Shown: piece after piece, positions 14,771-32,526 of the stretch
Layout: each line of letters starts with the position of its first letter
Numbering within the stretch: position 1 is the stretch's first letter
Source: Paracrocinitomix mangrovi
Lineage (GTDB): Bacteria > Bacteroidota > Bacteroidia > Flavobacteriales_D > Crocinitomicaceae
Assembly (NCBI RefSeq): GCF_019740355.2
Contig: NZ_CP091819.1
Coordinates: forward strand, 2,666,001 to 2,730,000
Direction: 5' to 3'
Length of the DNA stretch: 64,000 nucleotides
Position numbers and translations under genes: made by a program
The notes under the pieces: model-generated
Database searches by the model: none
Told to the model about the DNA's origin: nothing
Seen by the model: the letters and a program-made list of their open reading frames with translations, nothing else

Positions 14771-15712
14771 ATGAAAAAACTAGTAGTACTCATATCAATT
14801 CTGGCCTTCAGTAAAGGATTTGCTCAACAACTTGAGCATTACACACAATATCAGTTCAATCAATTTGCCTTTAATCCGGCAATTGCAGGAACAAAGAATT
14901 GTCTGGATATCAGAACGGGCTATAGATTTCAATGGGTTGGGATAGATGGTGCTCCGCAAACTGGCTTTATTAATGCTCATGCGCCCTTAAGATCATCCAA
15001 AAGAAAAAGAAATGCTTTTGGTCCTAAACACGGAATTGGCGGACAAATAAAAAGAGACGTATTTGGTCCTTTTTCAAACCTAAAGCTTCATGCAACATAT
15101 GCCTTACACTTACCAATAACTCGAAATTGGAATTTAAGTTTTGGCGCATCAATTGGATTTATGCATTCAGCATACAAAATAAGTGATTTAACAACTGAAG
15201 TGGCAGACCCTTCAATTGGTGGAACCTCACAATCATTTATTGTTTTCCCGGATGCAATTGCAGGCATGTGGTTGAGTGACAAAAAAACTTATGTTGGTCT
15301 TTCAGTTCATAATCTAATTGGAAATAGATTAGATGAAATTGGACAGGAAGCCAAACTTCAAAGACACGTATATTTAACAGGAGGAAGAAAATTTGCCCTT
15401 GAAAAAAAATGGTCCATTATTCCTTCTTTTTTCCTAATGTGGACCAAAGCCTCACCAATAGATTTTCATTTGAGCGCCTTAGTTGACCTTGATAACAAAC
15501 TAACTTTCGGAGTCGGATTAAGACGTACAGATGCTATAACTACCCAAATTAGGGTAAAATTGTTTAACTGGATATCAATTGGATACTCTTTTGATTTTGT
15601 GATATCTAAACTATCAGGAAACATGTGGTATACCCATGAAATTACTGGTGGTTTTAATTCATGTTCAAGTTATGGGAACAATAGTACAACTAGTTGCCCA
15701 AGCTTTGAATAG
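14771..15712 (+). CDS. PorP/SprF family T9SS outer-membrane protein (copy 1)
   Basis: 313 residues with a signal peptide (MKKLVVLISILAFSKGFAQ) and the family start QLEHYTQYQFNQFAFNPAIAGTKNCLDIRTGYR, of which the QYQFNQFAFNPA block is diagnostic. The rest alternates beta strands as in an outer-membrane barrel. SprF is required for secretion/assembly of the SprB adhesin in Flavobacterium, and PorP is a T9SS protein in Porphyromonas; paralogues are paired with individual type B substrates. This copy sits between the 424-residue substrate and the giant adhesin. It shares sequence with the copies at 25838 and 33171. Confidence 0.93.
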   Translation: MKKLVVLISILAFSKGFAQQLEHYTQYQFNQFAFNPAIAGTKNCLDIRTGYRFQWVGIDGAPQTGFINAHAPLRSSKRKRNAFGPKHGIGGQIKRDVFGPFSNLKLHATYALHLPITRNWNLSFGASIGFMHSAYKISDLTTEVADPSIGGTSQSFIVFPDAIAGMWLSDKKTYVGLSVHNLIGNRLDEIGQEAKLQRHVYLTGGRKFALEKKWSIIPSFFLMWTKASPIDFHLSALVDLDNKLTFGVGLRRTDAITTQIRVKLFNWISIGYSFDFVISKLSGNMWYTHEITGGFNSCSSYGNNSTTSCPSFE

Positions 15713-15821
15713 ATACAACCTTTAGAGTAGAAAATTCGTATATCATAAACAGACGGTTGATAAGTTGTTAATAACAGCCTATTTGTCTGCGAGAACTATG
15801 ATACTTTTATTGCTACAAACT

Positions 15822-18800
15822 ATGAAAAATCTACATAACAGACTTTTAAAGCCAGTTGTAGTTCTTATTGCTTTCTTTTTTACGTCAAATACGTTTGCGA
15901 ATAATTTCTATTGGATCAATGGATCCGGTAACTGGGATGACCCCTCTCATTGGTCTACTTCTTCTGGAGGTAACGCTGCAATGACAGTTCCAGGACCAAA
16001 TGACAATGTAATTTTTGATGCTCAATCTTTTACACAGTCTTACACTCAGGTTAACCTAAGCAGTTCGGTAACTATCCACAATTTATCTATCAGTAGTCCT
16101 GAGTTATTCGGGATTTTAGGAATTGGATTCGACCTAAGAGTTGTGGGAGACATTGCTGTGTCTGAAAATTGTGTAATAGAAATTAATAAGCTTGTCCTGG
16201 ATGGTGCAGGGAATCATTCTATTAATGCAGCCAATGCAGATATCATAGGTGATATTTCTTTCCAAAATGGAAACTGGAATATGCTTTCTAAATTAGAAGC
16301 TATTCGTCCTCACAACATGGAATTTGTGAGTGGAACCTTAAATTCTAATGGACACACTTTGGTGGCAGAACACATTTTTGCCAATACCAATCCGTACAAT
16401 TTTAATCTTACAGGATCGACAGTTTTTGCTTATGGAACAATTGATTTCAGTCAATCAGTAAACACCGGTGGATCAGCTAGTTTTATAACAGTTGACAGTG
16501 ATGTTGACAATGGTAAAAAAGGAGAGTTTTCTTCATCCAATTTTGATAGAGATCAAACATTTGACTGTGGTAGTGGTGGAATGATGGTAGATGTGGTTTC
16601 ATTAGATTACAATGGTGGCGTAAATGTTACTTGTGATGGGGTTTGTGATGGTGAAATAACATTGAGTGCTTTTGGTACTCCGGGAGGATTCTCGTACAGC
16701 GTTGACGGTAGCCCATTTACTGCTCAAACAGTTTACCCTAATTTGTGTCAGGGAACAAGACTTATCAGGGTAAGAGATACATCTCAAATTATCGGACCAG
16801 GACCAAGTTACTTCACATGTATTTTCAATGAAATTCTTAATAATCCACCTACGCTAACAGCTGATTTAGAACTTGCAGCACCAGTAGACGTTTCATGTTT
16901 TGGTGTTTGTGACGGTCAAGGTTTTGTAAGTGGTATTGGTGGAACCAACCCATATACTTACACTTGGTCTACTACAGCAGAAAACACAGGTTTTCCTCAA
17001 TTTCTATGTGCAGGAGACAATGATCTACATATAGAAGATGACAACGGATGTACATTTGACACCACCTTGGTAATTGGTGGACCTCCGTTGATTGATGTAA
17101 CTTTAAACATTACTGAGCCTATCTGTAATGGTGATAATAATGGTGAAGTAGATGTCACTCCTTCTGGTGGAAATGGACCGGGTTATACATTTGTTTGGAA
17201 CCCTGTACCTACATCAGGACAAGGTTCAAATCCGGGAATAGGATTTGCTGCCGGTTCAATAACATTATCTGTTTTTGATGTTGATGGCTGTCAATTTGAT
17301 ACCACATTTACAATGACAGAACCACCTATACTATCAATATCAGCACTCAACGTAGCCAATGCAAGTTGTTTTAGTGTTTGTGATGGTCAGGCCAGTTCAA
17401 CTCCTGTAGGCGGAGCAGGCAATAACACCTTTGAATGGTTTACCTGTCCTAAACCGGGAACCACAACTGGAATAACAGATCAAAACCCCAATACTTTATG
17501 CGCCGGTGATTACTATGTTATAGTAACAGATAATGGAGGTGCGGGTTGTTCAGCAGAAAGTGCCTGTATAACGATAACTGAACCTACAGAAATTGATGCA
17601 CAAGCACAAGCTTATGACATTTCATGTTTCGGTTTATGTGATGGTGCAGTTGATGTAGACGCAACAGGTGGTGCCGGAGGATATACTTTCCAATGGTCAG
17701 CTGTACCAGGAGGTTCTATTGGTATAACCGATAGTATTTCAAATTTATGTGCTGGATTTTATGAGGCAGTAGTTACTGACATTAATGGCTGTAACTCTAC
17801 ACCAGATACAGTAGAAGTAGTTGAGCCACCAGAAATCACAGTAAACTTAGCCACTACACATCCTACTTGTTTTAATGTATGTGACGGATCAGTAATTGCT
17901 ACGCCTTCAGGAGGTGTGGGAGGATATACTTACAATTGGTCACCAGCACCTGGAGCTGGTCAAGGAACAGCCACACCATCTGCCATGTGTGATGGAATTT
18001 ATACCGTAACTATTACAGACGGAAATGGATGTGTATTGAATGAAGACGATACTTTGATCGAGCCAACAATGATTACAGCAACTTTAAACATCACTCAACC
18101 TACTTGTAATGGAGGCTGTGATGGAGAGGTTGACGTAACACCTGCCGGTGGAAACGGACCAGGGTACACTTTTAGCTGGAACCCTGTTCCGGGAAGTGGA
18201 ATTGGATCAAACCCAGGAATTGGATTTTGTGCAGGTTCTGTAACACTTTCAATCTTTGATGTTGTTGGTTGTCAACAGGACACCACTTTTACCATATCAG
18301 AACCACCTGCTCTTACTGTTTCAGCAGCACAAGTTGCAGATGCTACCTGCTTTGGTTTATGTAATGGACAGGCTTCTGCCACTCCTGCAGGAGGAACAGG
18401 CCCTTATACTTATGAGTGGTTTTCATGTCCAAAACCAGGTGCTACAACAGGTATTACCAGTCAAAACCCTAACAACCTTTGTGCTGGAGACTACTATGTA
18501 ATAGTAACAGATGCTAGCGGTTGTACTGCTGAAAGTGGTTGTATTACTATAAACGAGCCTACAGAAGTTTTAGTTAATTCACAATCATATGATGTTTCTT
18601 GTTTTGGTGTTTGTGATGGTGCAACAGATTCAGACCCTACCGGTGGAACAGCTCCTTATACTTTTTCTTGGGTAACAGTTCCTGGAGGTTTAGGAGTTGG
18701 TGCATCAGATAGCTTATCTGGATTATGCCCTGGTTTTTATGAAATTATAGTAACAGATGATAACGGTTGTGTATCCACTCCGGATACAGTAGAAGTTGTT

Positions 18801-21800
18801 GAACCACCTGTTTTAGATGCTACAATGACTATTACTGACCCAAGCTGTTATGATTTATGTGACGGAGATGCCACCATCAATGTTACCGGTGGAACAGGCC
18901 CTTTTACATATAACTGGACACCAGCTCCTGGAATTGGTCAAGGAACTCCAAACGGAACTTCAATGTGTGCAGGTATTTATATCGTTGATATTACTGATGG
19001 CAATGGTTGTACTTTTCAATTAGAAGATACTTTAGTTGCACCTCCTCAATATGATGTAACTGTGGCTCAAACTAATTTACAATGTTTTGGGGATGCCAAC
19101 GGAACCATTGACCTAACTATTAATGGTGGGGGATCTGGAGCTGGTTATACATTTATTTGGTCACCAGCACCTCCAATTGGTCAAGGAACTACTAGCGTTT
19201 CAGGGCTTACAGCCGGAAGCTGGTGCGTAACTATTTCTGATAACCAAGCCTGTGACACTATCATTTGTATCACCATAACCGAACCAACGCAATTAGATGT
19301 AACCGCAAGTGTTATTTCACCAATAAGTTGTTTTGGTAGTTGCGACGGTTCTGCCCAAGCAGTAATTACCGGAGGAACTTCTCCATATAATACTTCTTGG
19401 ACTCCATCAGGATTAACCACCCTTGTCGCTAGTTCACTTTGCGTAGGAGCACACACTGTAACTGTAACAGATGATAATGGCTGTGTTGCCAATGATATAA
19501 TCAATTTAACTCAACCGGCCCAATATGATATTGATACTTCACATACAGATATTTCTTGTTTTGGAGATTGTATAGCTACTGCAACCGCAATTGTTAACTC
19601 AGGTGGAACAGGCCCTTATACATGGTCATGGGATGATGCGCCAGTTTTCCAATCAACTCCAACTGCGATTAATTTGTGTGCAGGAGCTTACACAGTTACT
19701 GTCTCAGATCAAAATTTGTGTGACACCACATTCACATTCAATATTATTGAGCCGCCAGTAATGGTTATTGACACTAACGTGATCAATTCAACTTGTTTTG
19801 GAACATGTACTGGTGAAGCCAATGTCAACGTAACAGGCGGAACGGGTCCTTACACTTTTGAATGGTTTGATGCCGGAACCGGAACAACAATCGGAGTGAC
19901 AACTTCATCAGCTACAAACCTTTGTCCAGGTGATTACTACGTTGAAGTTACAGATGCAAATCTATGCGTGATGTTGTCTGATACCATGACGATTTCAGAA
20001 TTACCTCAAATTAACGCATCTGTTGTTAGTATTACTGATGCTTCCTGCAATGTATGTGATGGTAGTGCTGAGGTTTTAGCAACAGGTGGAGATGGTTCAT
20101 TTACTTATACATGGACTCCAGCTCCTGGAACAGGTCAGGGAACTACAATTGCAACTGGTTTATGTGATGCCGTTTACAGTGTTGTTGCGCAAGACGGCGC
20201 AGGATGTACAGCCAATATCCCTGTAAATGTTAACAGTGTAGCAATTGAAACTACTTCAATGGATTCAACTGATGCTAGTTGTTTCGGTGTTTGTGATGGA
20301 ACTGCAACAATCTCGTATAATCTTTTAGACCCTCCTTACACTGTTGATTGGTATGACAATCTAACTGGATTACCTATTGGGATTACAGATGGTCCTCCTG
20401 CATCTCAACCTAGTACAGCAACCGGATTATGTGCTGGTGAGTATTTAGCAGTGCTAACCAATGGTTCGGGTTGTGTAACATCAGACACAATCATTGTTAA
20501 TGAACCACCTGAAATTATAGGTTCTATAATAAGTACTAATGTTACATGTAATGGTGCTTGTGATGGAACAGCTATGATTACTGCTTCAGGAGGAGTTGGA
20601 ACATTAACTTATACATGGAATCCTATTCCAGGAGGTGGACAAGGAACTCCTACCGCGGTAGGACTTTGCACCGGTGTTTATGATGTTACAGTAACAGATC
20701 AAACTGGATGTTCAGAAAACTTTAGTGCCAATATCTCTGAACCAACTTTATTATCAATAGACGCTTTAAACTCAAACGATATTAGTTGTTTCGGAGCTAA
20801 TGATGGCACCGCCTCTGTAATTCATTCAGGAGGTCAAGCACCAATTACATATGAATGGTTTGATTGTTCTAGCGGACTTACCATTGGACAAACCACGCAA
20901 ATAGCAAACAATTTAGGACCTGGAACATATCAAGTTGTTTTAACAGATGCCAATGGTTGTACACAAACTAGCTCATGTGTTATTATTAATGAACCTGCTT
21001 CAATTACAGCAACAGTGAATGTTAGTCCGGTTAATTGTTATGCTAATTGTGACGGAGTTCTTGATGTAGTGCCAGGTGGAGGTACAGCTCCCTATTTTTA
21101 CCAATGGCAAGATGAATTTTTAACAGATATTCCAGGACAAACAAATGATACTATGAACAATGTTTGCCAAGGAATTTACAATGTACAAATAACAGATTTT
21201 AATGGTTGTACACAGTCATTTGGACCATTTGATATGACTTCACCAACTAACCCTTGGAATGTTACTACTTCACAAACTGACATTAGTTGTAATGGTAGCT
21301 GTGATGGTACAGCAACTGCCACTGTATTAGCGGGGAACACCCCTCCTTATACCTTCTTATGGGATGACCCACTTGTACAAACTACTGCAACTGCAACTAA
21401 CTTATGTGCGGGTACATATAATTTAACAATTTCAGATGCCGGTACTTGTGATACAACTGTAACAGTCACTATCATTGATGCAACACCAATTGTGGCTAAT
21501 GCTACAATTAATAATGTTCTTTGTTTTGGAGATTGTACGGGTCAAATTTCACTTGCTCCATCTGGTGGTACTGCTCCATATACAGTTAACTGGTCAGATT
21601 TACAAACAGGAACGACTGCAACAGGGTTATGTGCGGGATCAATTACAGCAACAATTACAGACGCTTCAGGATGTACCTACGATACCATTGTAAACATCAC
21701 TGAACCTACAGAATTAATAGTTTCCACATCATTCGCAAACAATTCGGCTTGTGGATTATGTAATGGATCTGCAACTGTAAACCCTTCTGGTGGTGTTGGA

Positions 21801-24800
21801 CCTTATACATTCTTATGGTCGCCGGTACCTGGTGCAGGACAAGGAACTAACAATGCTACTTCATTATGCCCTGGGGTTTATTCATGCACAGTTACAGACG
21901 CTAATGGATGTTCAGAAGTTGAAGTGTTCGCAATTTCAGATATTTCTGCTGAAACTTTGACCATGGATTCTACAGACGTTAGTTGTTTTGGATCATGTGA
22001 CGGTGGCGTTGAAGTGATATATATCTGTAGTGATCCTCCTTGTACTAATCAATGGTATGATGGTACTAGTGGACTTCCATTAACGGGTGAAACAGGAACT
22101 ACAGTATCCAATCTTTGCGCAGGAGATTATTATGTAGAAGTAACTAATGGATCTTTATGTGTTTCAATAGGTGTAACAACTGTGACCGGACCAACTCAAA
22201 TATTGGCGAATGAAACCGTAAATCAAATTAGCTGTAATGGCGCTAATAATGGAAGTATTATTCTTGCTCCTTCTGGTGGATCAGGAGGTGGATTTACGTA
22301 TACGTGGTCCCCAGTACCGGGTAATGGACAAGGCAATTCTTCTGCCACAGGATTATCTCCTGGAACATGGTGTGTAGACATTATTGACAGTGATGGATGT
22401 ATTCAAAATTATTGTTGGGATATTAATCAACCAACTGCTACTGTAATTAATCCATCAGTTACTGACCCATCTTGTAATGGAAGCTGTAATGGTATCATTT
22501 CAGTTGCCGTATCAGGAGGTTGGGGAAGTTATACTTACCAGTGGTATGATGGTGGAGGAAATCCAATTCCTGGTGAAACCAATTCTTTAATTAGTGGGTT
22601 GTGTGCTGGAAACTATACTATAGAAATTACAGATGCAGGTGGATGTATTTCAACAATGTTGATCACATTAACTGAGCCTTCTGGAGTTACCTCTCCAATA
22701 ACTGGCACAGATGTCTTGTGTTTTGGAGATTGCACAGGGACTGCAACTGTAAATCCATCTGGAGGTTTTGCTCCATATATTGTTAACTGGTACAACTCTG
22801 GAACAGGATTATTAATTGGACAATCAGGCAATACAGCATCAAGTTTATGCCCTAATGATTATCATGCAGTTATTACGGACAACAACGGTTGTAATTTCAC
22901 AACTCCAGTAGTTTCTGTTGGAGAGCCACCAGAATTGACCTGGACAATTAACTCAAATGACGCAAGCTGTTTTGGAGTTTGTGACGGTGATGCCCAAGTA
23001 ATACCTGCAGGGGGATTCCCAGGATATTTCTTTGAATGGTTAGACATAGGCGGAAACCCTATTGTAGGCGGAACAACATCTTCAGTTTCTAACTTATGTG
23101 CCGGAAACTATACAATTGAAGTTATAGACGTTAATGGATGTACTTCAGGTCAACAAACCGTTGTAATTGATGAAAACCCTGAAATTACTGGAAACATTTT
23201 CACAAACAACTCAACTTGTGGAGGCGCTACCGGATCTGCAACTGTATTTGCTACAGGTGGAACCGGACCATATACTTATCAATGGTTTGATAACTTAATG
23301 GTTTTACTTCCTGGAGAAACTGCAAACACTATTCTAAATATAGCTGCTGGGGCGTACTTTGTTGAAGTTACTGATGCAGCTGGATGTACTGAATTATTCC
23401 TTGCAAATGTTAGTGACAGCCCTGTAACTACTATTACCTGGGATGCAGTAAATGATCCTACTTGTTTTGGTGGAAGTGATGGAAACATTTCAATCACAGT
23501 TAGTGGACCAAATGCACCATTTATCTACACCTGGAACCCTGGTGGTTTAATAGATGAAGATCCAACCGGATTATATGCAGGAAATTGGACTGTTCAAATT
23601 ACGGATGCTTTAGGTTGTATCAATTATTATGACACAACATTATTTGATCCTGCAGAAATTCTTGTTACTTCAAATGTTACTGCATCTGACTGTGATCTTT
23701 GTAATGGTGCAATTGATATAACCGTAACAGGAGGAACAGGAGCAGCTACAGTTATTTGGAACAACTCAATGACCGGAACATCAATCAATGGTTTATGCTC
23801 TAGTATGTATGAAGCCCAAATCACAGATGCAAATGGATGTCAAGTATTGGAACAAGTTGATGTACCTAACAATGGTGGATTAACGGGAGACCAAACCGTT
23901 ACAGCAATTAGTTGTGGAGGTGTGTGTGATGGAGAAATTACGGTTAGTGGTATTGGTGGTAATCCTCCTTATTCATATTATTGGTTACATGATGGATCAA
24001 CATCCAGTACACAGTCTAACCTATGCGCAGGTTCATACTTTGTAACAATTACAGATTTTGTTGGATGTACTTATTCAATGGAAATTGAAATGAACGAACC
24101 AAATGCAATTGACATTGAAACTACCATCACAAATCCTTCATGTGGAAATGCCGACGGTTCAATTACAGTTACAAGTTCGGGAGGAATTTTACCTCACACC
24201 TATTTATGGAACACTTTGGCCGTAACCCCTTCAGTATCTAACTTAAGTGCAGGAGTGTATATTGTAACAGTTACAGACGCTTCTGGATGTGCTCAAGATT
24301 TTGAAATTGGATTAAGCAACTCAGATGCACCAATTGCTACTGTAACTAGCAACAATATTTCATGCGCTTCACTTTGTGATGGACAAGCGGATACTACTAG
24401 TGTAGTTGGAGGAACACCTCCTTATTCGTTCCAATGGTTAGATTTCCAAGGATTCCCAATTTTTGGAGAAACTAATCCTGCCATCATAGCCTTGTGTGAA
24501 GGAGATTATACACTTCAAACAACAGATAATTTAGGGTGTGTATCATTCCAATCAATTACAGTTACTGAACCGGATACAATCTTATTAAACCCACTTTTTA
24601 CAGCTGATCCAAGTTGTAATGGTGATTGTGATGGTCAGTTAGTTGCGAATCCTATTGGAGGAACTTTACCATTTACTTTCTTATGGGACAATACACCGGC
24701 ATCTACAACTGTAAATGCAGACAGCTTGTGTGATGGTACTTATAATCTTACTATTACGGATGCAAACGGATGTTCAATTATTCAAACTGGAATTGTTTCA

Positions 24801-25826
24801 GAACCTACACCGATTACTATTGTTCAAGACAGCATTATTGACGCTACTTGCTATAATTCAACTGATGGTGAAGTTTATATTACAATTTCAGGAGGAACGC
24901 CTGGTTACACATCACAATGGATCTCACAAACAATGGCAGATACTTTAAATACAGAAGACATTACTACTTTAATGCCTTTGGGTTATTATTTAACAGTTAC
25001 TGATGCCAATGGTTGTATTGCCATGGATACGGCAGTTGTCGATACAGTTATCAATGTGCTGGCTTTTGTGGGAATGGATACTTTAATCTGCTATGGTGAT
25101 TCTATTCCGTTGTATGGTTACTCAAACGTAGATCCTTTAGCATCTTTAACATGGTACGACACTACTTTTGCAAACGTATACAGTGTTACTAATGAAATGG
25201 TACCACCAACAGATTCAGCTGGTACGTTTACTTACATTTTCACTGCTAATTATTTGACATGTACTCATGCAGATACAATAGTAGTAACTGTCTTACCTTC
25301 TTATACAGTTGATGCCGGACCAGATGTAGAAATGTACTCACAACAAGAACACATCATTGGAGGAAATCCTACTTCTAGTGATCCAAACTTGACATATACC
25401 TGGAGTCCTCCATACTTCTTAGATGACACTACGGCAGCTAATCCTTATGTGATAGAACCAACCTCATCTAACTGGTATTTTGTAACCGCTACAGATGCAA
25501 ACGGCTGTAATGCAACAGATTCTATGTACGTATTGTTGCTACCAGATCTAGTAATTCCTGATGGAATTTCACCAGATGGAGACGGTAAAAATGATACCTG
25601 GATCTTAGACTTTATTGAAATGTATCCTGGCGTTGACATAGAAATAAATGTTTACAATAGATGGGGTGAAATACTATTCACTGCAGATGAAACATATGCA
25701 GATGATTGGGGGGGAACTACAAGAAAAGGAAAACGACTTCCTGCGGGAACATACTATTACACTATAGTAATAGATCATGAGGATTTCCCTGATCCGTTTA
25801 CAGGTCCAATAACAATAATGTGGTAA
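15822..25826 (+). CDS. Giant SprB-repeat adhesin, T9SS type B substrate
   Basis: 3334 residues from the ATG at 15822, chosen because it starts the signal peptide MKNLHNRLLKPVVVLIAFFF; the frame opens 19 codons earlier at a TTG. Residues ~27-260 are a beta-rich N-terminal domain (FYWINGSGNWDDPSHWS). Residues 267-3074 are 35 SprB-type repeats of about 80 residues (CFGVCDG ... GGTGPYTYEW ... LCAGDY ... VTDANGC ... EP). Two Ig/PKD-like domains and a type B sorting domain (ISPDGDGKNDTWILDFIE, INVYNRWGEILF) end it. SprB is the mobile gliding adhesin of Flavobacterium; this is a homologue by repeat type, not shown to be its orthologue. Gene is followed by a PorP copy 11 bases downstream. Confidence 0.95.
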   Translation: MKNLHNRLLKPVVVLIAFFFTSNTFANNFYWINGSGNWDDPSHWSTSSGGNAAMTVPGPNDNVIFDAQSFTQSYTQVNLSSSVTIHNLSISSPELFGILGIGFDLRVVGDIAVSENCVIEINKLVLDGAGNHSINAANADIIGDISFQNGNWNMLSKLEAIRPHNMEFVSGTLNSNGHTLVAEHIFANTNPYNFNLTGSTVFAYGTIDFSQSVNTGGSASFITVDSDVDNGKKGEFSSSNFDRDQTFDCGSGGMMVDVVSLDYNGGVNVTCDGVCDGEITLSAFGTPGGFSYSVDGSPFTAQTVYPNLCQGTRLIRVRDTSQIIGPGPSYFTCIFNEILNNPPTLTADLELAAPVDVSCFGVCDGQGFVSGIGGTNPYTYTWSTTAENTGFPQFLCAGDNDLHIEDDNGCTFDTTLVIGGPPLIDVTLNITEPICNGDNNGEVDVTPSGGNGPGYTFVWNPVPTSGQGSNPGIGFAAGSITLSVFDVDGCQFDTTFTMTEPPILSISALNVANASCFSVCDGQASSTPVGGAGNNTFEWFTCPKPGTTTGITDQNPNTLCAGDYYVIVTDNGGAGCSAESACITITEPTEIDAQAQAYDISCFGLCDGAVDVDATGGAGGYTFQWSAVPGGSIGITDSISNLCAGFYEAVVTDINGCNSTPDTVEVVEPPEITVNLATTHPTCFNVCDGSVIATPSGGVGGYTYNWSPAPGAGQGTATPSAMCDGIYTVTITDGNGCVLNEDDTLIEPTMITATLNITQPTCNGGCDGEVDVTPAGGNGPGYTFSWNPVPGSGIGSNPGIGFCAGSVTLSIFDVVGCQQDTTFTISEPPALTVSAAQVADATCFGLCNGQASATPAGGTGPYTYEWFSCPKPGATTGITSQNPNNLCAGDYYVIVTDASGCTAESGCITINEPTEVLVNSQSYDVSCFGVCDGATDSDPTGGTAPYTFSWVTVPGGLGVGASDSLSGLCPGFYEIIVTDDNGCVSTPDTVEVVEPPVLDATMTITDPSCYDLCDGDATINVTGGTGPFTYNWTPAPGIGQGTPNGTSMCAGIYIVDITDGNGCTFQLEDTLVAPPQYDVTVAQTNLQCFGDANGTIDLTINGGGSGAGYTFIWSPAPPIGQGTTSVSGLTAGSWCVTISDNQACDTIICITITEPTQLDVTASVISPISCFGSCDGSAQAVITGGTSPYNTSWTPSGLTTLVASSLCVGAHTVTVTDDNGCVANDIINLTQPAQYDIDTSHTDISCFGDCIATATAIVNSGGTGPYTWSWDDAPVFQSTPTAINLCAGAYTVTVSDQNLCDTTFTFNIIEPPVMVIDTNVINSTCFGTCTGEANVNVTGGTGPYTFEWFDAGTGTTIGVTTSSATNLCPGDYYVEVTDANLCVMLSDTMTISELPQINASVVSITDASCNVCDGSAEVLATGGDGSFTYTWTPAPGTGQGTTIATGLCDAVYSVVAQDGAGCTANIPVNVNSVAIETTSMDSTDASCFGVCDGTATISYNLLDPPYTVDWYDNLTGLPIGITDGPPASQPSTATGLCAGEYLAVLTNGSGCVTSDTIIVNEPPEIIGSIISTNVTCNGACDGTAMITASGGVGTLTYTWNPIPGGGQGTPTAVGLCTGVYDVTVTDQTGCSENFSANISEPTLLSIDALNSNDISCFGANDGTASVIHSGGQAPITYEWFDCSSGLTIGQTTQIANNLGPGTYQVVLTDANGCTQTSSCVIINEPASITATVNVSPVNCYANCDGVLDVVPGGGTAPYFYQWQDEFLTDIPGQTNDTMNNVCQGIYNVQITDFNGCTQSFGPFDMTSPTNPWNVTTSQTDISCNGSCDGTATATVLAGNTPPYTFLWDDPLVQTTATATNLCAGTYNLTISDAGTCDTTVTVTIIDATPIVANATINNVLCFGDCTGQISLAPSGGTAPYTVNWSDLQTGTTATGLCAGSITATITDASGCTYDTIVNITEPTELIVSTSFANNSACGLCNGSATVNPSGGVGPYTFLWSPVPGAGQGTNNATSLCPGVYSCTVTDANGCSEVEVFAISDISAETLTMDSTDVSCFGSCDGGVEVIYICSDPPCTNQWYDGTSGLPLTGETGTTVSNLCAGDYYVEVTNGSLCVSIGVTTVTGPTQILANETVNQISCNGANNGSIILAPSGGSGGGFTYTWSPVPGNGQGNSSATGLSPGTWCVDIIDSDGCIQNYCWDINQPTATVINPSVTDPSCNGSCNGIISVAVSGGWGSYTYQWYDGGGNPIPGETNSLISGLCAGNYTIEITDAGGCISTMLITLTEPSGVTSPITGTDVLCFGDCTGTATVNPSGGFAPYIVNWYNSGTGLLIGQSGNTASSLCPNDYHAVITDNNGCNFTTPVVSVGEPPELTWTINSNDASCFGVCDGDAQVIPAGGFPGYFFEWLDIGGNPIVGGTTSSVSNLCAGNYTIEVIDVNGCTSGQQTVVIDENPEITGNIFTNNSTCGGATGSATVFATGGTGPYTYQWFDNLMVLLPGETANTILNIAAGAYFVEVTDAAGCTELFLANVSDSPVTTITWDAVNDPTCFGGSDGNISITVSGPNAPFIYTWNPGGLIDEDPTGLYAGNWTVQITDALGCINYYDTTLFDPAEILVTSNVTASDCDLCNGAIDITVTGGTGAATVIWNNSMTGTSINGLCSSMYEAQITDANGCQVLEQVDVPNNGGLTGDQTVTAISCGGVCDGEITVSGIGGNPPYSYYWLHDGSTSSTQSNLCAGSYFVTITDFVGCTYSMEIEMNEPNAIDIETTITNPSCGNADGSITVTSSGGILPHTYLWNTLAVTPSVSNLSAGVYIVTVTDASGCAQDFEIGLSNSDAPIATVTSNNISCASLCDGQADTTSVVGGTPPYSFQWLDFQGFPIFGETNPAIIALCEGDYTLQTTDNLGCVSFQSITVTEPDTILLNPLFTADPSCNGDCDGQLVANPIGGTLPFTFLWDNTPASTTVNADSLCDGTYNLTITDANGCSIIQTGIVSEPTPITIVQDSIIDATCYNSTDGEVYITISGGTPGYTSQWISQTMADTLNTEDITTLMPLGYYLTVTDANGCIAMDTAVVDTVINVLAFVGMDTLICYGDSIPLYGYSNVDPLASLTWYDTTFANVYSVTNEMVPPTDSAGTFTYIFTANYLTCTHADTIVVTVLPSYTVDAGPDVEMYSQQEHIIGGNPTSSDPNLTYTWSPPYFLDDTTAANPYVIEPTSSNWYFVTATDANGCNATDSMYVLLLPDLVIPDGISPDGDGKNDTWILDFIEMYPGVDIEINVYNRWGEILFTADETYADDWGGTTRKGKRLPAGTYYYTIVIDHEDFPDPFTGPITIMW
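16620..25043 (+). repeat. 35 tandem SprB-type repeats (~240 bases each)
   Basis: By eye I count 35 copies averaging about 80 residues. The core is C-x(2,3)-C-[DN]-G ... GG-x-x-PYTY-x-W ... LCAG-x-Y ... TD-x-NGC ... EP. Eight copies (3, 11, 18, 24, 28, 29, 32, 35) lack the second cysteine, and the same eight lack the cysteine of LCAG. Copies 3-6 (about 17100-18080) and 7-10 (about 18081-19061) are a larger duplicated block. DNA identity between copies is well below protein identity, so the array is old. Confidence 0.9.
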
Positions 25827-25837
25827 AACGTAGAGAG

Positions 25838-26758
25838 ATGAAGAAATTAATTATCATACCGATCATTTTGTTTGCGTGCGCAGTTTACGGACAGCAATTA
25901 CCGCAATTCACTCAATATATGTTCAACAATTATGCTTTTAATCCGGCGTATGCAGCTGTTAACAAATATTGGGAAGGAACCTCTATGAACAGATACCAAT
26001 GGATAGGAATTACAGATGCGCCTAGAACGTTTACCTTATCTGCACACGGCCCTTTAAAAGATGAAAAAATAGGTTTAGGTGGATATGTATACACTGACAT
26101 AGTTGGACCAACTCGTAGAATTGGTTTTCAAACCTCTTTTACTTATCACGTTCAATTTTCAGAAACTATTTTTATGTCCTTCGGATTATCCGCAGGATTC
26201 AATCAATGGATACTAGATGCGGATAAAGTAACTACCTATCATCCGAATGATTTTTACTTTTCAAATGGATTGCTAAAGTCTTTTGATCCGGATGCTAAGT
26301 TTGGATTTTGGTTATATCATGAAGACTGGTATTTCGGAGCTTCATTAGGACAAATGTTCCATAATAAACTATCTTTCTTAGAGACTCAAACAAACTCTGA
26401 AAGCTATATGGAAGATCATTTTTACTTCACTGGTGGCTACAAATTCAGAATAGGGGAAGATTGGGCTATTGAACCAACTATGTTATTTAAATTGGGATTA
26501 CCTGCACCGGTTAAATTTGATCTTAACATAAGAGGAATTTGGAAAGATATGCTTTGGTTAGGAGTTGGAATGAGAACACAAGATGCCATGACAACAATGC
26601 TTGGTTATAAGTACAAAGATATGCTTACAATTGGTTATGCATATGACATTACGCTTACCAAACTTAAGAATTTTAGTACCGGCACCCATGAGATTATGTT
26701 AGGTGTTAAATTCGGTAAATCAAATTCTAAAATGGAAACCGATCCATCATTAGAATAA
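25838..26758 (+). CDS. PorP/SprF family T9SS outer-membrane protein (copy 2)
   Basis: 306 residues from the ATG at 25838; an in-frame ATG at 25820 overlaps the adhesin stop and gives a poorer signal peptide. The start MKKLIIIPIILFACAVYGQ is a signal peptide and QLPQFTQYMFNNYAFNPAYA is the family signature. Strand-rich barrel to the end (KMETDPSLE). It lies directly after the giant SprB-repeat adhesin, exactly where sprF sits relative to sprB in gliding Flavobacteria, so it is the best candidate for the adhesin's dedicated partner. Followed by a TonB-dependent receptor after 41 bases. Confidence 0.93.
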   Translation: MKKLIIIPIILFACAVYGQQLPQFTQYMFNNYAFNPAYAAVNKYWEGTSMNRYQWIGITDAPRTFTLSAHGPLKDEKIGLGGYVYTDIVGPTRRIGFQTSFTYHVQFSETIFMSFGLSAGFNQWILDADKVTTYHPNDFYFSNGLLKSFDPDAKFGFWLYHEDWYFGASLGQMFHNKLSFLETQTNSESYMEDHFYFTGGYKFRIGEDWAIEPTMLFKLGLPAPVKFDLNIRGIWKDMLWLGVGMRTQDAMTTMLGYKYKDMLTIGYAYDITLTKLKNFSTGTHEIMLGVKFGKSNSKMETDPSLE

Positions 26759-29698: not shown

Positions 29699-29706
29699 TA
29701 TATTTG
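29699..29706 (+). promoter_or_regulatory. TAnnTTTG match immediately before the S9 peptidase
   Basis: TATATTTG fits the Bacteroidota -7 consensus but ends only three bases before the ATG at 29710, so it would give a leaderless or inside-gene start. It may be a chance match. Confidence 0.2.
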
Positions 29707-29709
29707 TAC

Positions 29710-32526
29710 ATGTCTAGATTCAATTTAAACCCTGGTTTTTTCAGCTTGCTATGCGGACTATTTATTGGCTTCAATGCCATTTCGCAAAAAAAGACCATTT
29801 CGCCTGAAATGTATGATGAATGGCAATCAATATCAACATTCAAACAAACTCCCTCTGGAAAATGGATTACTTATGAAGTAAAGCCACTTGATGGAGATCA
29901 AACCACTTATATACTTTCTGCTGGTGGTGATGTAGCCAAAGAATGGCAAAGAGCAACCAACACTCATTTACATTATAAGGATCAATTTGCATGTTTTATA
30001 ATTCAACCTGCTCATGATTCGGTAAGAAAATTGAAATTAGAAAAAGCCAAAAAATCACAGTTTCCGGATGACAGTTTAGGAATTTATATGATGGCCAATG
30101 ATAGCCTTATTAAGTTGGCGAATATTAAATCATACAAAGCAGCAAAAGAAGGAGATTGGATTGCATATCTATCTACTAAAGATAACAGGCCCGTTCCTGC
30201 AAGCAAAAAGAAAAAAAAGAAGAAAAAGAAAAAGGGCAACGAACCACCTAAAACATCAGGAACTACATTAACTGTGTACAACCCTACAAATGGAACTACT
30301 TCAGTTATTCACAGAGTAACAGACTATTCTTTTTCTGAAAATGGAAATAAACTAGCTTATGTATCAAGTATTAAAGGTGAAAAAGATTCATTAACTGTTC
30401 ATGTTATTGATTTGGTAAAAGATGAAACAACAACACTTATTGAAAATAGCCTTGGTATTGAGAAATTAACCTTTGACGAAGACGGAAAACAGCTAGTTTT
30501 TCTAAGTTCTTTAGACACTGGAAAAGTTAAAAATTATGCGTTGGCATATTGGCAAGAAGGTCAACACAACGCTCACATCATTGTAGACTCATTGTCTAAA
30601 GACATGCCGGAAGAATATACGGTAAGTCAAAATGGACAAATCTATTTCTCTGAGAACGGAGAAAAGATCTTTTTTGGAATTAGCGAAATTCAAAGAGAGG
30701 AACCAAAAGACACTTTATTAGAGACAGAAAAAGCTCATGTGGACATTTGGGCAGGAGATGACTCCAGAATTCAACCTGAGCAATTAAAACGTCTTAAAAG
30801 AGATCAAAACAGCTCCTTCTTATCAGTGTATCACATTAAAAGAAAAAAATTCGTTCAACTTGAAAGTGAATCATTAGAACATGTAAGTCCATTAGAAAAA
30901 GGAAACTCAGAATTTGCATTGGCTTCAGATGACCAGGTATATCAAAGAGAGCGCACATGGGAATATCCTTGGAGACGTGATTATTATATTGTTTATACGT
31001 CAAGCGGCAGAAAAGAGATTTTAAAGGAAGGCTTGTATTTTGGCGGTTCTATATCTCCCGGCGGACATTATTTTGTTTATTATAACCACAGTGATTCTAG
31101 CTGGTACAGTAAAGACATTTTAGCCAAAAAAGAGAAAAAAATAAGCGCCAACGGATTAAAATTCGCAGATGACCTTAATGGACAGCCTGCTGTTGCAGAT
31201 CCTTTTAGAACTTATGGCTGGACTAAATTTAATGATGACTATTACTATGCAGTAAGTGATGGGTTTGACATTTGGTATTTACATCCAAACAAAGCTGAGC
31301 AATCATTTTGCATGACTAATAAAATTGGAAGCGAACAACAGATCAAATTCTCTATTTGGCGTACAGAAAATGACAGCCTTTATTTTGCACCTGATAGAGT
31401 AATAATTCATGGGTTTGATGAAAATAACAAAGACGAATTGTTTTATAGTTTAAATAGAACTGAAAATGGGTTTGGGTTGAAAGAGTTGCTTAGAACAAAT
31501 CACAAAATTATTGGATTTAATAAAGCAAAAGAAAGTGAACAGGTATTGATAAGAAGAATGAATTTTTATACTTATCCTGATCTAGAAATCACAAACACAG
31601 ACTTTGACAATTTTGCCAAAATTTCTGAAGTAAATCCACAACAAAAAGAATATAATTGGGGGACTGTGGAGTTTGTAGAATGGTATGCTTATGATAGTAC
31701 CAAATTGAGAGGTTTATTATACAAACCAGAGGATTTTGATTCAACTAAATCCTACCCTATGATTACATATTACTACGAAACATACACTGACAACATCAAC
31801 AATTACTATGCTCCTAAACCAACGGCATCAATTGTATATCCTACTGAATATGTAAGTAATGGTTATATCTTTTTTGTTCCGGATATTAAATACACTCCGG
31901 GTTATCCTGCAAAGTCAGCCTATAACTGCATAGTAAGCGGAACAGATTATTTAACTAGAAAATACAATTGGATTGACAGTACTAGAATGGGAATTCAAGG
32001 ACAAAGCTGGGGAGGATATCAAACAGCACAACTTATTACAATGACCGGAAAATATAAAGCTGCAATGGCAGGAGCACCGGTAAGTAATATGTTCTCAGCC
32101 TATGGTGGTGTAAGATGGGGAAGCGGCCTGTCTAGAATGTTCCAATATGAACACTCACAAAGTAGAATTGGTGCAACCATTTGGGAGAAACCAGAGTTAT
32201 ATATAGAGAACTCTCCTATATTTCATTTGCCCAATGTAACCACACCATTGTTGATTATGCATAATGACGGAGATGGCGCAGTTCCATGGTACCAGGGAAT
32301 TGAGCTTTATATGGGTCTCAGAAGGTTAGATAAAGATGTTTGGTTGTTGAACTACAACAATGATGAACACAACCTGATGAAACAACCAAATAGAAGAGAT
32401 TTAAGCGTTAGAATGAGGCAGTTTTTTGACTATTATTTACAAGATGCTCCAATGCCAAATTGGATGAAATATGGACTTCCTGCTCTTGATAAAGGAGAAA
32501 GAAACGGCTATGAGCTTGAAAAATAA
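29710..32526 (+). CDS. S9 family prolyl oligopeptidase-like serine peptidase, exported
   Basis: 938 residues from the ATG at 29710 (a TTG two codons earlier also opens the frame). Signal peptide MSRFNLNPGFFSLLCGLFIG then a seven-bladed propeller-like N-terminal domain and a C-terminal alpha/beta-hydrolase. The nucleophile is Ser766 in GIQGQSWGGYQTAQL; the acid is in HNDGDGAVPWYQG and the His in NNDEHNLMKQPNR. S9 peptidases cleave short peptides after Pro or release acylated/dipeptide N termini; here it probably works in the periplasm or on the surface. Ten consecutive lysines (Lys166-175) interrupt the propeller. It appears monocistronic. Confidence 0.9.
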   Translation: MSRFNLNPGFFSLLCGLFIGFNAISQKKTISPEMYDEWQSISTFKQTPSGKWITYEVKPLDGDQTTYILSAGGDVAKEWQRATNTHLHYKDQFACFIIQPAHDSVRKLKLEKAKKSQFPDDSLGIYMMANDSLIKLANIKSYKAAKEGDWIAYLSTKDNRPVPASKKKKKKKKKKGNEPPKTSGTTLTVYNPTNGTTSVIHRVTDYSFSENGNKLAYVSSIKGEKDSLTVHVIDLVKDETTTLIENSLGIEKLTFDEDGKQLVFLSSLDTGKVKNYALAYWQEGQHNAHIIVDSLSKDMPEEYTVSQNGQIYFSENGEKIFFGISEIQREEPKDTLLETEKAHVDIWAGDDSRIQPEQLKRLKRDQNSSFLSVYHIKRKKFVQLESESLEHVSPLEKGNSEFALASDDQVYQRERTWEYPWRRDYYIVYTSSGRKEILKEGLYFGGSISPGGHYFVYYNHSDSSWYSKDILAKKEKKISANGLKFADDLNGQPAVADPFRTYGWTKFNDDYYYAVSDGFDIWYLHPNKAEQSFCMTNKIGSEQQIKFSIWRTENDSLYFAPDRVIIHGFDENNKDELFYSLNRTENGFGLKELLRTNHKIIGFNKAKESEQVLIRRMNFYTYPDLEITNTDFDNFAKISEVNPQQKEYNWGTVEFVEWYAYDSTKLRGLLYKPEDFDSTKSYPMITYYYETYTDNINNYYAPKPTASIVYPTEYVSNGYIFFVPDIKYTPGYPAKSAYNCIVSGTDYLTRKYNWIDSTRMGIQGQSWGGYQTAQLITMTGKYKAAMAGAPVSNMFSAYGGVRWGSGLSRMFQYEHSQSRIGATIWEKPELYIENSPIFHLPNVTTPLLIMHNDGDGAVPWYQGIELYMGLRRLDKDVWLLNYNNDEHNLMKQPNRRDLSVRMRQFFDYYLQDAPMPNWMKYGLPALDKGERNGYELEK

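Follow-up and report, generated by a model that had tools for sequence, protein, structure and literature searches.

How are the cysteines of an SprB-repeat adhesin paired, and what might their pairing do for the stalk that the repeats build? The question is raised by a gene of Paracrocinitomix mangrovi that lies in the window, the stretch of 64,000 nucleotides analysed here. It encodes 35 SprB repeats, in which four recurrent cysteines are called C1 to C4 in their order along the repeat. The initial annotation, a reading of this DNA by eye, had proposed a C2-C3 disulfide, optional extra bridges and, by elimination, a C1-C4 disulfide inside each repeat. We have examined these pairings in the window, across Bacteroidota genomes and on a structural model of the repeat chain.

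The adhesin and the cysteines of its repeats

The adhesin frame is open from 15765 and extends over 15765-25826 on the forward strand (3353 aa counting from 15765; Table 1). Its product consists, in order, of a signal peptide, an N-terminal region, the 35 SprB repeats, two more Ig-like domains and a T9SS type B C-terminal domain (CTD). The repeat family PF13573 is matched in 32 stretches (2e-210, 680.5 bits, against a Pfam curated cut-off of 28), while the sorting signal is matched by the CHU_C T9SS signal domain PF13585 (3.8e-19) and by TIGR04131, the T9SS type B sorting domain (1.8e-11). The window adhesin has the repeat family, the type B CTD and an adjoining porP/sprF gene in common with SprB, the gliding adhesin of Flavobacterium johnsoniae. 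On its 5' side lie a smaller type B substrate and a second PorP/SprF gene (14771-15712), the product of which ends in NSCSSYGNNSTTSCPSFE. A search with the adhesin C-terminus matched a MAG of the Crocinitomicaceae with 73% identity and one of an uncultured member of the Flavobacteriales with 61%, and the P. mangrovi genome as a whole contains 148 SprB repeat matches. Elsewhere in the window, positions 29704-32526 hold an S9-peptidase-like ORF carrying a long lysine run (PASKKKKK...KGNEPP).

Table 1. Features of the adhesin locus, in window coordinates
Feature	Position	Strand	Remarks
SprB-repeat adhesin gene	15822..25826	+	probable ATG MKNLHNRLLKPVVVLIAFFF at 15822
N-cap cysteine Cys268 (TFDC)	16566..16568	+	putative partner: C4 of repeat 1
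Tandem SprB repeats, 35 (Ig-like domains, 74-89 aa), all with C1 and C4	16596..25046	+	
C1 of repeat 1, Cys290	16632..16634	+	putative bond to C4 of repeat 2
C2 and C3 of repeat 1, Cys294-Cys328	16644..16748	+	example of 27 intra-repeat pairs, AB loop to EF turn
C4 of repeat 1, Cys352	16818..16820	+	putative partner: N-cap cysteine
Cap domain D36 (Ig-like)	25047..25292	+	C1 Cys3109 at nt 25089, C4 Cys3166 at nt 25260
Putative bonds of D36: C1(R35)-C4(D36) and C1(D36)-C4(D37)			basis: same layout in 13 proteins, and the model
Terminal cap domain D37	25293..25550	+	C4 Cys3248 at nt 25506, without C1; would close the ladder
T9SS type B C-terminal sorting domain	25551..25823	+	PF13585, TIGR04131
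PorP/SprF-family carrier	25820..26758	+	probable outer-membrane partner of the adhesin; PF11751 2.7e-72, TIGR03519 3e-74

The repeats were re-derived by translating 15765-25826 (+) and then aligned, which gave exactly 35, and on this realignment the earlier reading by eye of the cysteine pattern proved exact. C2 and C3 occur together in 27 repeats and are jointly missing from the other 8 (repeats 3, 11, 18, 24, 28, 29, 32 and 35), with no discordant case. The extra cysteines are also paired: WF[ST]C or WFDC goes with a late cysteine in repeats 4, 8 and 18, WC goes with the same late cysteine in repeats 11 and 24, and repeat 23 has IC..PC. These extra pairs of six repeats fall between strands F and G (columns 58-72), between strands C and G (39-72), or in the BC loop. 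The number of cysteines is 2, 4 or 6 in 34 repeats and odd (five) in repeat 22 alone, where the odd residue occupies a core Val position, column 59 of the repeat profile. In the wider collection described below, column 59 is a cysteine in 96 of 2192 repeats, replacing the core Val and having no coupled partner; the odd residue of repeat 22 is for this reason probably an unpaired buried cysteine with a free thiol.

C1 and C4 are present in 35 of the 35 window repeats. With both so nearly universal, the window repeats alone are uninformative on whether the two pair, and a bond between them inside each repeat is compatible with all 35.

Cysteine coupling across Bacteroidota genomes

A profile built from the 35 window repeats retrieved 2192 repeats in 194 open frames of 84 Bacteroidota genomes. 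Column coupling of C2 with C3 was sought in this large alignment and found: the two-by-two table of C2 against C3 in the same repeat read 227, 9, 5 and 1636 (Fisher P = 2e-274), with both cysteines in 227 repeats of this wider set, neither in 1636 and 14 repeats discordant. In a first, smaller set the table was 157, 7, 2 and 867, the discordant rows listed for it being mostly truncated or non-SprB matches, and thinning to 50% identity left the coupling still near-perfect (93, 6, 2 and 543). Of the 84 genomes, 28 have C2-C3 pairs, and in 47 proteins repeats that carry the pair stand alongside others that lack it, which indicates that its state changed many times and that the coupling does not stem from one ancestral event. 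Since the coupling persists in 2192 repeats, the intra-repeat C2-C3 disulfide is well supported, and we predict it with high confidence from this covariation.

Further coupled columns were 58-72, 56-74 and 60-70, and also 22-48, 27-32 and 39-72. The first three all total 130, which fits antiparallel strands F and G. Covariation in many genomes thus backs the optional extra bridges proposed for the window, as does the consistent register of the strands. Among the 1850 repeats that have both C1 and C4, the number of cysteines is even in 98% when column 59 is set aside. Three extra cysteines, an odd number, co-occur at columns 16, 60 and 70 in 8 repeats.

Do C1 and C4 of one repeat pair in the same manner? 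Among 1985 repeats, 82 lacked C1 alone, 50 lacked C4 alone and 2 lacked both, where 2.2 would be expected, so that no coupling is seen within the repeat. By contrast, when C1 of repeat i was set against C4 of repeat i+1 over 1749 consecutive repeat pairs, the table was 1719, 1, 8 and 21 (P = 4e-41), with both cysteines at 1719 junctions and 21 double absences against 0.36 expected. In the control pairing of C1(i) with C4(i+2), 1 double absence was seen against 0.3 expected. Counting each locus once, the association between C1(i) and C4(i+1) has P = 5.5e-15, and P = 5.6e-13 if the homologous arrays L127 and L129 are merged. Nine junctions are discordant for this pair, of which seven are explained: in four the linker directly ahead of repeat i+1 holds a substitute cysteine (L079, L121 twice and L132), and in three C1 falls just beyond the scoring window. 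The two junctions without explanation are in L155 and L169.

Mean-field DCA was performed on two-repeat alignments (1749 pairs, effective number 1574, 10278 column pairs). C2-C3 ranked first, and C1(i)-C4(i+1) ranked 6 of 10278 with z = 12.9, the top between-repeat pair; the same-repeat C1-C4 pair reached z = 1.4. The next between-repeat pair, at z 6.8, was a same-column effect, and weaker between-repeat couplings (19-67, 13-63, 12-65) lie near the C1(i)-C4(i+1) patch. With the staple columns and the staple-deficient junctions taken out (a staple being a C1(i)-C4(i+1) bond), the forward patch exceeded the reverse one with P = 0.02, which is modest support.

From this covariation we predict, again with high confidence, a C1(i)-C4(i+1) disulfide between consecutive repeats. 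In the adhesin frame of the window, such a map would pair 140 of the 142 cysteines: the sum is made up of 37 staples, 34 of which would join one repeat to another, 27 C2-C3 pairs, 6 extra pairs and 2 lone residues, Cys136 and the column-59 cysteine of repeat 22.

Domain geometry, array ends and alternative pairings

The AlphaFold2 model of repeats 22-25 is a chain of Ig-like domains (mean pLDDT 95.4, pTM 0.75), and its best structural matches are likewise tandem Ig chains. Titin I65-I70 comes first by VIA-align Z score (Z 12.2, rmsd 12.0, 306 residues), in a tie with GhpA from Aureispira (Z 11.8, rmsd 8.8, 295 residues), which is the best bacterial VIA-align match and also the top Foldseek match (E 1.5e-10). 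A PDB search with a single sequence returned weak matches only, and with the profile GhpA was found. An Ig domain has its AB loop and EF turn at the exit end and its FG loop at the entry end. The predicted sites of C1 and C2 are in the AB loop, C1 just after strand A, that of C3 is in the EF turn and that of C4 is where strand G begins; by the co-evolving contacts 11-75 and 14-77 between strands A and G, C1 would lie next to the far end of strand G. Judged from this topology, C1 would be about 9 residues, roughly 30 A, from the C4 of its own domain, whereas C1(i) and C4(i+1) would flank the same junction.

The ends of the arrays offer a separate view of the pairing. If C1 bonds the C4 of the next domain, the last domain is expected to lack C1, and the first to lack C4 unless a cysteine precedes it. 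C1 was missing from 31 of the 43 repeats immediately preceding a T9SS CTD and from 53 of 1942 at other places (P = 6e-36), and strictly defined last repeats kept C4 in 36 of 36. Of the 12 pre-CTD repeats that keep C1, one (L202) is a false match of the CTD search pattern, and the others have either CxxC, with the second cysteine three residues on, or a cysteine at the CTD junction, with the exception of L033, where C1 stands alone ahead of the CTD. Among first repeats after a signal peptide, an N-cap cysteine and C4 were both present in 8 and both missing in 6. Two, those of the homologous arrays L127 and L129, had C4 but no N-cap, and one was scored as N-cap only owing to a cysteine within its signal peptide. 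The three proteins orthologous to that of the window (L227, L228 and L156) share Cys268 and the C4 of repeat 1 with it; Cys136 is not conserved. The layout of the caps, with C1 and C4 in D36 and C4 only in D37, is found in all 13 aligned proteins.

A further distinction comes from L127 and L129, in which the repeats follow a unit of three, C4 only, then C1 only, then C1 and C4, in about 6-7 copies per array. The super-unit is strict in L129, and L127 has one irregular unit. Bonds between C1(i) and C4(i+1) would give these arrays two stapled junctions and then an open one, leaving scarcely a lone cysteine other than the first C4. Bonds inside the repeat would leave a lone cysteine in two of every three repeats, and the order in which C4-only repeats precede C1-only repeats also speaks against them. 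Taken with the missing same-repeat coupling, with the opposite ends of the domain at which C1 and C4 are placed, which make a same-repeat bridge implausible, and with the N-cap and D37 cysteines that would be left without a partner, these arrays make the intra-repeat C1-C4 bond, once reached by elimination, very improbable.

Could the C1(i)-C4(i+1) bonds join parallel chains instead, cross-linking adhesin molecules into bundles? Covariation cannot separate intra-chain from inter-chain pairs, and the hook of the related GhpA was deposited with an average of seven chains per entry (8 entries, 56 chains). However, one chain gives the simplest account of the phase from i to i+1 and of single-chain caps at either end, and the two sites face each other over one junction of a linear Ig array, so that we give bundling only a very small chance.

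It is also hard to credit that the cysteines are mainly reduced or metal-binding, their couplings reflecting the ancestry of duplicated repeats. This view could draw on the kinship of the repeats within an array, and on the fact that the homologous arrays L127 and L129 account for 15 of the 21 double losses. However, a duplicated or replaced segment cannot explain the joint loss of C1(i) and C4(i+1), since C4(i) and C1(i+1) would have gone too, and these remain. The loci with compensating linker cysteines are unrelated to each other, and the even cysteine number of the 1850 repeats likewise argues against ancestry as the cause. A pairing of C4(i) with C1(i+1), the nearest cysteines in sequence (~25 residues apart), has next to no chance, its slight excess of double absences (5 against 1.5 expected, P = 0.017) standing against 95 junctions with exactly one of the two, a DCA z of 1.8, and the prediction of a last repeat without C4 and a first without C1, the reverse of what is observed.

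A candidate disulfide ladder in the stalk

With C1(i)-C4(i+1) as the preferred pairing, it is very probable, on the strength of these sequence patterns, that the stalk of this T9SS-secreted adhesin is an inter-repeat disulfide ladder with optional intra-repeat bonds; its likely role would be that of a stiff, force-bearing rod. The stalk would comprise the 35 Ig-like SprB domains and the two cap domains, arranged head-to-tail and anchored at the surface. The exit end of domain i would present C1, in its AB loop, and the entry end of domain i+1 would present C4, in its FG loop; bonded to each other, they would make each junction doubly covalent, through its peptide linker and its disulfide staple. 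Beside the C1 staple, the bond from C2 in the AB loop to C3 in the EF turn would be an optional same-domain addition in 27 of 35 repeats. The ladder would be closed by the bond of the N-cap cysteine to the C4 of repeat 1 at one end and, at the other, by D37, which has a C4 and no C1. Bond formation would take place in the periplasm or outside. During N-to-C export the C4 of each new domain would meet the waiting C1 of the preceding one, and such an export order would allow the ladder to close in sequence. By fixing the orientation between domains, the staples would make the stalk a stiff rod able to bear force in an oxidising environment; for this mechanical role, the stiffening of the stalk, our confidence is moderate.

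In the P. mangrovi genome, no DsbA-like periplasmic oxidase, DsbB, Thioredoxin_4 domain or convincing VKOR was recognised. A VKOR match proved to be spurious, the protein being a multi-pass membrane protein, and the single FrnE-like DSBA match is without a signal peptide. The same genome encodes many cysteine-rich exported proteins despite the missing DsbB and Thioredoxin_4 matches.

Most Bacteroidota arrays carry staple cysteines at every junction. One may speculate that the alternation of stapled and unstapled junctions is an evolved mechanical code, and that L127 and L129 have regular hinges in an otherwise rigid rod; we regard this as a tentative idea, somewhat less likely to be right than wrong.

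How does the proposed ladder relate to known systems? The SprB repeat family is already known. In agreement with the initial annotation, which knew of no published disulfide map for this repeat, neither such a map nor a capped inter-repeat ladder was found in the literature that could be searched. One of the closest solved structures by fold is that of GhpA, the grappling hook protein of Aureispira sp. CCB-QB1 (cryo-EM; PDB 9FLP, 9FLS, 9FLU-9FLY and 9G8B). It shows weak single-repeat sequence similarity only to the SprB repeat, and has a similar cysteine spacing: in its aligned stretch, residues 1178-1482, the cysteines alternate C4/C1 as in the window adhesin. The Aureispira hook structures may already contain an inter-domain disulfide map.

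Junctions are also reinforced in other stalks and repeat proteins. In the stalks of RTX adhesins (MpAFP region II and relatives), calcium in the linkers stiffens the junctions (PMC7493085, PMC4083281). RTX and SprB stalks would then both be tandem Ig-like domains stiffened at their junctions, by calcium in the former and by the predicted disulfides in the latter. Disulfides tether consecutive solenoid repeats in Helicobacter HcpB and HcpC, which are made of Sel1-like repeats (PMC3851747); their fold is the alpha-helical SLR, and the Ig-like SprB repeat is not related to it.

For the gliding system itself, the only disulfides reported in the searchable literature, none of them in the stalk, tie the carrier SprF, and also PorG, a part of the translocon, to the track protein GldK (PMC12635249). 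In F. johnsoniae it is the CxC of the SprF C-tail that bonds GldK (PMC12635249). The C-tail of the window carrier adjoining the adhesin gene at its 3' end is free of cysteine, in contrast to that of F. johnsoniae SprF (PMC12635249), and the window adhesin may therefore not be coupled to a gliding track through a bond of the SprF-GldK type.

In size and number, the proteins built from SprB repeats rank with the foremost surface proteins of Bacteroidota, and the pairing bears on how force would be transmitted along their stalks during gliding and attachment. If the staple map is correct, these stalks would be covalent ladders and not bead-on-string chains, and a long persistence length would be predicted for them. 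The redox state at the cell surface would then bear on motility and adhesion, and the type IX system would export, or finish, heavily oxidised substrates. The map supplies the exact residues for mutation.
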